A stretch of 64,000 bases of DNA from Saccharicrinis aurantiacus (GTDB lineage: Bacteria; Bacteroidota; Bacteroidia; Bacteroidales; Marinilabiliaceae): the NCBI RefSeq assembly GCF_001660705.2, contig NZ_LYBV02000020.1, positions 1-64,000 of the forward strand, given 5' to 3'. The notes beneath the pieces were generated by a model. It had not been told where the DNA came from. It did not search any database and saw only the letters and a list, made by a program, of their open reading frames with translations. This document shows positions 20,356 through 61,743 of the stretch, in pieces. A program made the position numbers and the translations under genes. Each line of letters begins with the position of its first letter. Position 1 is the first letter of the stretch.

Positions 20356-20406
20356 TAGTTAGGTTTGGTTAAGTATAGGGGAGGAGTGGTTACCTCCCCT
20401 TTTTTT
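20356..20406 (+). ncRNA. Candidate small RNA, copy 3 of a three-member family
   Basis: The 15-nt sequence GTTAGGTTTGGTTAA (20358-20372) is followed after 5 nt by an intrinsic terminator: GGGGAGG (20378-20384), an 8-nt loop, CCTCCCC (20393-20399) and seven T. No gene lies upstream on this strand, so the terminator must serve a short transcript. The same 15-mer with the same geometry occurs at 59610 and 60569. The terminator sequence is unrelated to those two. Confidence 0.55.
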
Positions 20407-25837: not shown

Positions 25838-25930
25838 GGGGCTTCCCCTGCGGGTCACGCTATACGCTGTATCTTTTTGTCCCGAAAAAGGCCAAAAAGG
25901 ATGCCGCTCCTATCGTTAAGCCGGGCCCTT
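25838..25930. repeat. GC-rich structured intergenic repeat
   Basis: An island of about 90 bp that is clearly richer in G and C than its surroundings. It holds an imperfect hairpin whose arms are 25871-25882 (ATCTTTTTGTCC) and 25890-25902 (GGCCAAAAAGGAT), flanked by GCGGGTCACGCTATACGCTG and ATGCCGCTCCTATCG. From memory this resembles dispersed non-coding repeats seen in many marine Bacteroidota genomes. I see only one copy here. Confidence 0.5.
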
Positions 25931-57274: not shown

Positions 57275-57466
57275 ATGAAAGAAGGAAAAGTAAAATTTTT
57301 TAATGAATCAAAAGGTTTTGGTTTTATTAAAGACAATGAATCAGACAACGAGTATTTCGTTCACGTAACTGGTCTAATCGATGAAATCAAAGAGGACGAC
57401 GACGTTACTTTTGAATTAAAAGAAGGAAAAAAAGGATTAAATGCGGTTAACGTAAAGTTAGCATAG
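57275..57466 (+). CDS. Cold-shock-domain protein
   Basis: A 63-residue CspA-family RNA chaperone. RNP1 is KGFGFI (13-18) and RNP2 is YFVHV (27-31), with Tyr in place of the usual first Phe. The 5' leader is short, unlike that of enterobacterial cspA, so thermosensor control by a long leader is unlikely. It has its own promoter and terminator. Confidence 0.92.
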   Translation: MKEGKVKFFNESKGFGFIKDNESDNEYFVHVTGLIDEIKEDDDVTFELKEGKKGLNAVNVKLA

Positions 57467-59327: not shown

Positions 59328-59477
59328 ATGATTTTAGGTGTATCTGAATGGCTAAGTGGTAAATTGGGTTGGAATGTTAAAGGCATACGTATTGCATTTA
59401 TTTTATCGGTATTAATTTTCGGAGCAGGAATTGGCTTGTACCTAATGCTTTGGATTGTTAAGATGTTTTCGAAGTAG
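59328..59477 (+). CDS. 49-residue PspC-like membrane protein
   Basis: A short frame from ATG 59328 to TAG 59475-59477. The product has GVSEWLSGKLGWNVKGIRIA followed by one hydrophobic helix with Gly-Ala-Gly-Ile-Gly and LYLMLW. This is the core of the PspC domain, as in R-I-x-G-V-x-x-x-L-x-x-x-x. It is shorter than usual PspC proteins (60-70 residues) but complete in frame, 75 nt after the lipoprotein gene. Confidence 0.6.
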   Translation: MILGVSEWLSGKLGWNVKGIRIAFILSVLIFGAGIGLYLMLWIVKMFSK

Positions 59478-59606
59478 TGCTCTTGCAGGATCAATACAGC
59501 CTAAATTAATTGTATATCATTACCAATAATTCCATGGCAAATCTATTTTTATCAAAATAAGTTATGGATAAAGATTGCGGATATAAAAAATATTCGTATA
59601 TTGCGG

Positions 59607-59668
59607 TGGGTTAGGTTTGGTTAAAGATTGAAAAGCTGCTATCGTTCTCACGATAGTGGCTTTTCTTA
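59607..59668 (+). ncRNA. Candidate small RNA, copy 1 of a three-member family
   Basis: A promoter is visible: TTG at 59575-59577, 19 nt, TATATTG at 59597-59603, giving a start near 59607. The RNA would begin GGG, contain GTTAGGTTTGGTTAA (59610-59624), then AGATTG, then a 14-bp terminator hairpin (59631-59644 with 59651-59664) and a T-rich tail. Over 50 nt are nearly identical to copy 2 at 60567. Base pair A641-T654 here is G-C in copy 2. Confidence 0.6.
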
Positions 59669-59712
59669 TTTTATACCCATCAGTGAAAATAGGTTCATTA
59701 GCAATAGTTTTG

Positions 59713-60336
59713 TTAAAACTTAATTTTAGCCTTAAATATATTTGAGTGACTCGCCTGTTGAATATATAGCTCTCTATCAACACCATGTATGCCAAGGTCT
59801 TCTGCTTTATCTTCTTTGCGTAAATATCTTTTTGATTCCTTAACAAGTTGTTTTCTTTCTTCTTCAGTCATCCTATATTCTGGAGCCTTTTGATTAGCAG
59901 TAGTAGTGGATAATAATATCTGATTTTGATTAAGGGTATCTGATACATTTAGATTTGAATAATAGAGTATCAGTTTTTCTATATTTTGCTTATACTGATT
60001 TAGAATGGTTGAATCTATTGATAAGTCATATGCTCCTTTATATTTTTCAATAATATTCACCTTAAGAGCTGAATCCTGATAACAGATAACTCCTTGTACA
60101 TAACAAGAATCACTTATTTCAGGGAAGAGATAGAAAGCGACTTTCTCAGTATAGCTAATAGTATCTCCAATTAGTGGGTGCAGTTGAACGGGTTTCTGCG
60201 AATTTGCGCTATTGCTTACACATAATAATGAAACGAATAACGATAATTTTAAAAATAGATGCTTACGCGGATAATTGCAAATTTTGTGTGACACATTGAA
60301 AAAGCGCCTATCTTTTCTTGTTTCGTTGATTTTCAT
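59713..60336 (-). CDS. Hypothetical secreted protein
   Basis: A 207-residue protein whose hydrophobic segment (about 27-45) ends SNSANSQ, as a signal peptide would, but is preceded by an unusually long basic stretch. The rest is polar and helical, with a Lys/Glu-rich region MTEEERKQLVKESKRYLRKE near 155-175 and a conserved-looking GIHGVDRELYIQQ end. I do not recognise the family. It lies between the two near-identical small-RNA units and is opposite to them in direction. Confidence 0.6.
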   Translation of the reverse strand: MKINETRKDRRFFNVSHKICNYPRKHLFLKLSLFVSLLCVSNSANSQKPVQLHPLIGDTISYTEKVAFYLFPEISDSCYVQGVICYQDSALKVNIIEKYKGAYDLSIDSTILNQYKQNIEKLILYYSNLNVSDTLNQNQILLSTTTANQKAPEYRMTEEERKQLVKESKRYLRKEDKAEDLGIHGVDRELYIQQASHSNIFKAKIKF

Positions 60337-60555
60337 AATGTTTGATGTTTAGGTTTTAGGGGATTTGTATAAAAAAATATTACCACATCAAAAGTATTAA
60401 TATTATGTACGTAATCAAATTATGAGATTTTATTAAATAAAGTATCAATACACAAGTTCCAATATGATTTAAAGCTTGGTTTGTTCCAGCGTTATAATTA
60501 AATCAGCAGGCCTGATTTTTTTCGCTTATATATGTTACTATCTAGATTTTTTTAC

Positions 60556-60563
60556 TATATTTG
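60556..60563 (+). promoter_or_regulatory. -7 element of small-RNA copy 2
   Basis: TATATTTG, an exact match to TAnnTTTG, 6 nt before the conserved GTTAGGTTTGGTTAA. No coding gene lies downstream on this strand, so the promoter serves the small RNA. The -33 region lacks a clear TTG. Confidence 0.6.
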
Positions 60564-60566
60564 TGT

Positions 60567-60627
60567 GGGTTAGGTTTGGTTAAAGATTGAAAAGCCGCTG
60601 TCGTTCTTATGACAGTGGCTTTTTTTA
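60567..60627 (+). ncRNA. Candidate small RNA, copy 2 of a three-member family
   Basis: Starts about 4 nt after TATATTTG; contains GTTAGGTTTGGTTAA (60569-60583), AGATTG, then a terminator hairpin (60590-60603 with 60610-60623) and T run. Against copy 1 the hairpin shows one compensatory change (A-U to G-C) and two changes that keep pairing (U-G to C-G, G-C to G-U), as expected for a conserved RNA structure. Confidence 0.65.
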
Positions 60628-60888
60628 CTTGGATCCTTTAATAAAAGAGTTTAGACTTATTACGAACCCTCAGAGTATGGGGTACAAGTGAGTTAACACG
60701 AGATTTTTATGCTTATATGAGGCATTAATTTGTTAAATAGCACATGTCTGTTTTTGAGGTAATTAACTCTATTAAACTAAACAAATCCCTTTCGGAGAGG
60801 TTATCTAAGAAGAATAACTGAAGTTATCTTGTCTTTCAATCGAATATATTTTAAGAATTTTAGTATGTGTATTAAAGATACTATCCTC

Positions 60889-61743
60889 TTAAGATTGTCC
60901 GAGGTGGTGTCTGCAATAACCACTAGTATTATTGGTTTTAGATTTGCAGCGGTTGCCTGTGCTCTTGGCAATGCCTTTACATTGCATGGTTGATGTTTTT
61001 TTCTTTACTGTTTTGGATTCTGTTGTGTTAGATTTACGTTGCCAATCGTCGATATTGCCTAACTGACTTTCAAGTTGTACTTCTAAGGTGTCATCTAACT
61101 GAGAGAAGAAATTGATACCAGTTAAGGTTTCAATGCTGTCTACTGAGATAATGAATTGAGTAAGTTCTTTGTCTGATTTTTGGTTAGGTAACACAAAGCC
61201 TATCATTTTTTGTGTTGATGGTTGATATATTACTTTGTAATAGTGACTAGGTACAGTTACTTTATTTGCACCAATACTTCCTTTGTTGTCTTTAAATATT
61301 GGCCCTGATACAACATGGGTTTTAGTGTTCCATCCCCACTCTCTTACTAATACTTCTAGGTTTTTCCAAATACCCCTATTAAAATTGGGTTCTTGAGGGC
61401 TTATATTGGACATGAAGAATGTTTCGCTCATAGAAGTGTGGTTTAACTTCATGGTTGCAGCTGGACATAGATGACCACGGTCGTATCCTGAGTTTTTATA
61501 GTCAGCCAATGTAGCTGATTTTGTGGATACTTTTGGGTCGGGTCTGAAATCATCAGTCCGTGTTTCATTGCCTGCATGGATTGTATAATATACCCATTCG
61601 GCTTGTTCGTGGGCTTCAATATATGAAAGTGAGTAATATTGGTGTTCTATTAGTTCTCCGTTAGAGGAGGGATGATATTGCGCAAAAAGAATAAAGGAGT
61701 AAAGGCTTAATACAATGGATAGAATATACTTTCTCATAAACAT
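60889..61743 (-). CDS. Secreted DNA/RNA non-specific endonuclease (NUC1 type)
   Basis: A 284-residue nuclease: signal peptide (about 1-21, ending LFAQ), the beta-beta-alpha metal motif YDRGHLCPAA (DRGH at 88-91, His91 catalytic), the metal-binding Asn in NISPQEPNFNRGIW, and VVSGPIF. It degrades DNA and RNA outside the cytoplasm. After residue 235 comes a Lys/Thr-rich linker and a small Cys/His module, CKGIAKSTGNRC then YCRHH, resembling a zinc-binding element (DUF5763-like) seen in other Bacteroidota nucleases. An ATG at 61737 is an equally good start. Confidence 0.88.
   Translation of the reverse strand: MFMRKYILSIVLSLYSFILFAQYHPSSNGELIEHQYYSLSYIEAHEQAEWVYYTIHAGNETRTDDFRPDPKVSTKSATLADYKNSGYDRGHLCPAATMKLNHTSMSETFFMSNISPQEPNFNRGIWKNLEVLVREWGWNTKTHVVSGPIFKDNKGSIGANKVTVPSHYYKVIYQPSTQKMIGFVLPNQKSDKELTQFIISVDSIETLTGINFFSQLDDTLEVQLESQLGNIDDWQRKSNTTESKTVKKKTSTMQCKGIAKSTGNRCKSKTNNTSGYCRHHLGQS

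Follow-up and report, generated by a model that had tools for sequence, protein, structure and literature searches.

The window, by which we mean the whole 64,000-nt stretch of Saccharicrinis aurantiacus DNA that was analysed, carries near its right end two nearly identical short units on the plus strand, which bracket a gene of the opposite orientation. A PspC-domain gene (59328–59477, plus strand) ends 129 nt before the first unit at 59607, and the neighbouring gene to the right of the second (60889–61743) is a nonspecific-endonuclease gene. The features of the two units, of the gene between them and of a more distant third copy of their 5' block are as follows (with the basis of each in parentheses):

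59597..59603, plus strand: TATATTG, the −7-like promoter element of copy 1 (sequence; one T short of TAnnTTTG and unmatched by a TAnnTTTG scan)
59607..59629, plus strand: unpaired 5' seed block of copy 1 (15-mer search, predicted fold)
59630..59665, plus strand: 16-bp terminator hairpin of copy 1, then a T-rich tail (fold, pair table)
60556..60563, plus strand: TATATTTG, the −7 promoter element (TAnnTTTG) of copy 2 (sequence; no TTG at the −33 distance)
60566..60588, plus strand: unpaired 5' seed block of copy 2 (15-mer search, predicted fold)
60589..60627, plus strand: terminator hairpin of copy 2 (16 bp, ending at 60624), then its T tract (fold, pair table)
20358..20372, plus strand: third exact seed block in the window (15-mer search)
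20377..20406, plus strand: terminator hairpin of the third copy (8 bp, ending at 20400, unrelated to the other two), then a T tract (fold, z −1.81)
59713..60336, minus strand: gene between the two units, 207 aa; N-terminus signal-like as judged by eye; no match in Pfam (ORF list, Pfam search)

The original prediction named a block common to 59610 and 60569, and the 15-mer GTTAGGTTTGGTTAA is exact at both of these places as well as at 20358; a search of the window that allowed up to 2 mismatches gave these 3 matches, a number reached in 0 of 100 shuffled sequences (shuffle mean 0.23). The two units have the unpaired 5' block GGGTTAGGTTTGGTTAAAGATTG in common, followed by a 16-bp terminator hairpin; the block TGGGTTAGGTTTGGTTAAAGATT, which begins at 59607 and 60566, is predicted to be unpaired and has the hairpin and a T-rich tail 3' of it. 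The long terminator hairpins claimed for these sites are thus present in the predicted folds (−22.1 and −24.3 kcal/mol, z −4.63 and −5.00, respectively), and so are the compensatory changes, A-U/G-C, U-G/C-G and G-C/G-U, all of which keep the pair. Standard pairs fill 80 of 80 pair cells over the five near-identical copies in this genome, although with so few sequences the covariation is weak when taken alone (score reached in 46 of 500 shuffles). The third copy, which the prediction had grouped with these two, has only the block in common with them; the hairpin that follows is unrelated to theirs and has a weak predicted fold (12 of 200 shuffles do as well).

Both TA-rich −7 elements are where they had been claimed to be, and they begin 10 nt 5' of the matched block. 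The bracketed opposite-strand gene is likewise present; the claim that its product is secreted agrees with the N-terminus as judged by eye only. Thus the observation was borne out for its blocks, hairpins, pair changes, elements and bracketing, and it failed in one half of the statement that no gene lies upstream on the same strand: this is true of 60569 (no plus-strand ORF of at least 60 aa ends between 59477 and 60566), but not of 59610, with the PspC-domain gene 129 nt away. An Rfam scan of positions 59500–60700 at E up to 10 gave 13 matches, no Bacteroides sRNA family among them; the best of these, trpB (E 0.42, 26.1 of 59 bits), was rejected. At the gathering threshold the whole window contains only tRNA and Flavo-1 matches, the Flavo-1 RNA being at 25849–25926 on the minus strand (58.1 bits).

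The S. aurantiacus genome (5.88 Mb in 69 contigs) has eight exact copies of the 15-mer: the three in the window, C13:69441, a trio at C32:93970/94047/94148, and C49:15666 (contig and position). We aligned these eight with C28:289181, and each of the nine has a predicted fold of block plus hairpin, with z from −2.48 to −6.53 in eight of them and −1.81 at 20358. A copy with a damaged block is present at C13:74067, and contig C28 carries seven units of ~305 bp whose terminators have variants of the block; six of the seven are matched by R1, a sequence model made from the nine aligned copies. With the bridge subfamily described below the total comes to ~39 sRNA genes, 15 of the window type (six array units and the damaged copy among them), 22 paired and 2 single. 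Several candidates were discarded: at C19:60271 (L009) a block with one mismatch has no hairpin behind it (z +0.98) and is a chance occurrence, C47:2490, C14:97815 and C41:8482 have no terminator hairpin by eye, and a match of the model R2 (below) at L278 843–914 (plus strand) has no block by eye and was not counted.

The C28 array (288596–290800, L024) has a feature of its own. Each of its seven tandem units contains the same 14-residue ORF, MNEWVLNIEGKWVL, 5' of the terminator, and a block is recognisable in six of them. Among the units 2 of 45 ORF columns vary (both silently) vs 114 of 270 columns outside it, gaps counted; the ORF was not found in the other loci collected for this analysis. 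From its sequence it may be a conserved micro-ORF or leader peptide within an sRNA array, beside a gene that by eye is pyrophosphatase-like.

R1 matches 20 of 61 genomes, including all nine of the genus (own genome included). An exact 22-mer was found by genome contig search in 22 stretches, all of them in records of Labilibacter, Plebeiobacterium or Saccharicrinis, which NCBI places in the Marinilabiliaceae, Marinilabiliales. We extracted 68 unique copies, among them one without the block (in genome G047) and two with damaged blocks (C13:74067 and one C28 unit). Most copies in related genomes have a longer block, CTCATAGTTTAGGGTTAGG..., which starts earlier, with CTCATAGTTTAGGGTTAGGTTTGGTTAAAGATTG, in 33 of the 40 listed copies of the other eight genus members and in only 1 of 15 here (C32:93970). 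Class A copies have TATCTTTG-like elements 22–23 nt before TAGGG; the class B copy, which has a different conserved upstream sequence, occurs exactly once in each of the nine genus genomes among the 68 listed copies. TAnnTTTG is present 9–12 or 22–23 nt before the block in 19 of the 68 copies, 15 of which also have TTG at the −33 distance. On contig C310 of genome G007 (L096) four seed copies lie within 13.9 kb, ~7.7, 3.0 and 3.2 kb apart and two of them at contig ends; this spacing perhaps reflects a repeated unit that carries the sRNA.

For a second model, R2, we took 43 long-form copies (19 genomes) and left out the other eight of the 51 listed, near-duplicates and short forms among them; the model matches 52 of the family's 71 genomes. 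In the 43-copy alignment columns 2–30 are invariant or at least 90% conserved, while all nine hairpin pairs show two-sided change, the covariation score is reached in 0 of 500 shuffles, and slid pairings score lower than the true hairpin pairing. It is this near-invariance of the block beside a hairpin that drifts with its pairing kept, together with a FopS-related profile (below), that points to regulatory sRNAs. A search of relatives for homologous sites that keep neither the 15-mer nor the pairing gave no refutation of the original prediction; the prediction had not foreseen the ~39 copies, the more than one promoter type, or the longer block of most copies in relatives. Our literature search found no prior description of such sRNAs for Marinilabiliaceae or Labilibacter.

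The closest known parallel is FopS (RF04319). In the available text of PMC11697453 (Ruttiger et al. 2025), FopS is described from Bacteroidaceae as 14 paralogous sRNAs of Bacteroides thetaiotaomicron, with northern bands of ~65 and ~70 nt, an unpaired 5' seed (R1'), a terminator hairpin and canonical promoters; its seed block represses SusC translation, RbpB antagonises this, and GibS has the R1 seed in common with it. FopS is mentioned once in the available part of PMC12119571. Records of Bacteroides, Phocaeicola and Prevotella contain the printed 35-base FopS consensus without a mismatch, and in Parabacteroides it has a near-exact form (25 plasmid-collection records match). In 25 IMG/VR viral-contig stretches (L152–L176) 24 bases of the seed are likewise found exactly; one stretch (L154) adjoins tRNAs, in line with the phage carriage suggested in the available text of PMC11697453.

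A second subfamily, TTTTTCATAGATTAGGGTTTAGGTTAA plus hairpin, is found in the same genome and family; it was first seen as weak R2 matches, and judging from its sequence it appears to bridge the window-type family to FopS. It forms tandem pairs at 11 places in this genome (three on C69, and C25, C26, C33:36677, C67, C13:142989, C1:120078, C14 and C24:183401; loci L252–L254, L273–L277 and L279), and two single copies of this type are at C33:32529 and C1:357119. The σ54-type promoter motif TGGCA-N6-TTG is present at −36 or −38 in 10 of the 10 tandem units that the pattern caught, and the eleventh pair (C1) has the near match AGGCA-N6-TTG; in a sample of this genome the motif was counted 35 times over 1.73 million strand-bases. 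The genome encodes a σ54-type protein (PF04552, 2.9e-53). The same motif stands at −34 to −49 before FopS-like copies in other genera (L255–L257, L264, L267 of genus g12, L269, G015, G016 and G027). The Qrr RNAs of Vibrio are σ54-driven sRNAs. Like these, and like Rfp36 of Flavobacterium psychrophilum, a σ54-driven sRNA and so a precedent within the phylum (PMC9723704, in its available part), the bridge subfamily would be expressed from predicted −24/−12 promoters; the likeness lies in promoter type, and Hfq was not found here.

Profile searches connect the two sides. Against 22 FopS loci (176 kb) R2 found 15 of the 22, and its top 12 matches are all on FopS genes; its matches to FopS have weak E values, from 0.02 to 3.3, and of its 20 matches in all 5 lie off FopS genes. 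In the other direction a model of 18 FopS genes (R3, from 13 of the 25 viral loci and all five plasmid-collection loci), run against 33 sources, gave no match at any window-type copy, its two matches being elsewhere. When run against 85 kb its best 4 of 10 matches fall in the bridge subfamily (three genes of this genome, one of G074; E 0.0008–0.01), and 8 of the 10 are on sRNA genes: 5 bridge or long-form places out of 22 listed, plus 3 tandem partners. The best 14 of the 26 matches of the RF04319 model in this genome are on genes of the sRNA set (12 tandem-pair members and two single copies judged by sequence) and none of the 26 is a window copy; the highest score is 32.8 bits against a cut-off of 56, and 8 of 14 control genomes also match at E up to 10. 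GibS (RF04182) has no match at E up to 1 in four loci of this genome (L252, L253, L005 and L120).

As in FopS, these are short RNAs with many paralogs (eight exact seed copies, ~39 with variants, array units and tandem pairs) and a predicted single-stranded 5' seed followed by a Rho-independent terminator hairpin of free sequence. In the long-form relatives and in the bridge subfamily TCATAG, TTAG and GGTTAA are retained and the middle of the seed has changed; the long form's unpaired 5' block has UCAUAG..UUAG..GGUUAA, often with AAAGAUUGG before the hairpin, and many FopS genes run on as AAAGATTGG into the hairpin as the copies described here do. In having one copy per genome class B resembles GibS. 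Unlike in FopS, the seed is rewritten, and the R1' consensus GTGTTTTTCATAGTATTAGATTTAAGGTTAACAAA is not found in the window copies, which have no CATAG and no preference for SusC (below); the promoter element 10 nt before their matched block leaves no room for the anti-start-codon part, CTCATAGTTTA. The σ54-type promoters of the bridge subfamily and the lack of a detected RRM_1 protein in the genus are further differences. Thus, on these comparisons, kinship of the family to FopS is supported, with scores below the Rfam threshold; we regard it as FopS-like, not as FopS.

Pairing predictions were made with 594 start regions, drawn as a sample from the window and from 800 kb of the same genome. 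The original prediction proposed a search for mRNAs complementary to the 15-mer near start codons, and here the antisense target-site search gave nothing: the window seed did no better than 60 shuffles (37 as good on contrast to coding sequence, 49 in the tail), and of the 44 matches to the antisense pattern CCTAAACTATGA in nine genomes 34 are simply the reverse strand of sRNA genes, which leaves 10, against 21 for a reversed control. SusC genes were treated separately, 30 of the 39 over the cut-off being compared with the 594 sampled genes. In silico the bridge seeds pair better with the SusC starts (F2a p 0.001, F2b and C33 <0.0005), as does the FopS seed (p 0.024), whereas neither the window seed (p 0.41) nor the long class A/B seed (p 0.34) shows such a preference. 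When start-codon contexts were matched (19 SusC vs 169 others, 40 part-shuffled seeds), p was 0.0002 for F2b (2 of 40 shuffles as good), 0.044 for F2a (4), 0.007 for C33 (6), 0.07 for FopS (10), 0.40 for the window seed (9) and 0.47 for the long own seed (22); the bridge seeds thus prefer SusC only modestly. Since the window seed has no such preference, the modelled pairing suggests that the targets of the window branch are probably other than SusC.

Seeds with CAUAG (the long own seed and FopS) have a better mean energy, with 0 of 60 shuffles as good; we dropped this as evidence because it is largely plain start-codon pairing. In its best matches the long own seed is unremarkable (46, 29 and 11 of 60 shuffles as good for the best, top 5 and top 20), and with CAUAG held fixed the numbers of 25 part-shuffles as good (mean and top 20) are 20 and 24 for the long own seed, 5 and 0 for F2b, and 0 and 2 for FopS. 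The start region of the bracketed gene 59713–60336 ranks 4 of 594 for pairing with the long seed, which is not significant against shuffled seeds.

We consider it likely (probability roughly 0.7) that each of the two units encodes a trans-acting antisense sRNA of ~60 nt, and that both belong to a re-seeded branch related to FopS in the Marinilabiliaceae. What the analysis shows is sequence, conservation of pairing, copy number and kinship in profile searches; transcription, mRNA pairing and repression are inferred. A promoter with the TATATTG or TATATTTG element would start the transcript near GTGGGTTAGG, the predicted primary 5' ends of the sRNA genes being GTGGG, AACTCATAG and GAAGAGC. The 5' block would stay single-stranded and pair with mRNA start regions, so that ribosome entry is hindered, and the hairpin would end the RNA and protect it; in this branch the seed would have been rewritten (GGGTTAGGTTTGGTTAAAG), the window copies being without its anti-start-codon part. 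The original proposal, a small regulatory RNA that makes contact through an unpaired 5' block, is accordingly still the best-supported reading, now with 43 copies in 19 genomes and a FopS-related profile. Against it stands the state of the promoters, as the canonical σABfr form has −33 TTTG and −7 TAnnTTTG and 60566 has the −7 element without a −33 TTG, 59607 only a TATATTG. In addition, the copy at 59610 could be the 3' end of the same-strand gene that ends 129 nt before it. The RF04319 scores below the cut-off, the weak R2 matches and few R3 matches, and the negative pairing tests of the window seed also count against it.

That same position, the incomplete promoter motifs, and the fact that several copies are in tandem or close together would also suit terminators with a conserved lead-in, which either end upstream transcripts or are a dispersed repeat without function in trans. 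We think this improbable, as across genera the hairpin sequence varies freely and the unpaired block does not, which is unexpected for a terminator or a decaying repeat, and as promoter motifs do accompany copies of the block (the −33 TTG in 15 of 19 TAnnTTTG copies, the σ54 motif in 10 of 10 pattern-caught tandem units). Another alternative is that the block binds a protein and does not pair with mRNA. CsrB and RsmY are RNAs that titrate proteins, and the GGUUAGGUUUGGUU block might likewise be a decoy for an RNA-binding protein, for example one with a cold-shock or KH domain; GGUU is repeated in the block, the window seed has no excess pairing with start regions, and a cold-shock-domain gene lies at 57275 of the window, RRM_1 and Hfq not having been found in the genus. 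Yet RNAs of the CsrB type carry many sites in loops, and here there is a single linear block, whose long form, moreover, carries CAUAG, antisense to the start-codon context as in FopS; such a decoy is an unlikely explanation. Finally, the window-type copies might be decayed FopS relatives that have lost the functional part of the seed: CTCATAGTT is kept in 33 of the 40 listed copies of the other genus members vs 1 of 15 here, the block at C13:74067 is damaged, and the window seed gave no target signal. However, the remaining GGTTAGGTTTGGTTAAAGATTG is identical in seven copies whose hairpins differ, and decay seems to us very improbable.

The trans-acting sRNA reading has a further aspect in the partner proteins. 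Of the family's 71 genomes 44 have an RRM_1 protein (PF00076, the RbpB type), but none was found in the nine of the genus (the control, Bacteroides ihuae, was positive), and Hfq was found in 0 of 41 relatives. R2 counts are 2–13 in the genus, the largest of all (12 and 13) being there; this is an observation on one genus and one event, with a model built mostly from that genus, and we claim no statistics for it. We tentatively suggest, at somewhat less than even odds, that in this RRM-less genus FopS-related sRNAs were enlarged to the ~39 of this genome and split into σ54-controlled, SusC-leaning tandem pairs and a re-seeded window branch aimed at other mRNAs. This suggestion is weakened by the 18 other RRM-less genomes of the family, which have only 0–5 R2 matches. 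If it is true, it would be a natural test of an sRNA network that works without its protein partner. What is found in this marine relative of the gut Bacteroides is a related, here larger, sRNA set in a genus with no detected RRM_1 or Hfq; its promoters fall into two classes or more, and so do its seeds. This set makes testable the need for RbpB in a FopS-type network, the way in which a change of seed shifts the target set, and the signal that σ54 might bring to the control of glycan transporters outside the gut.
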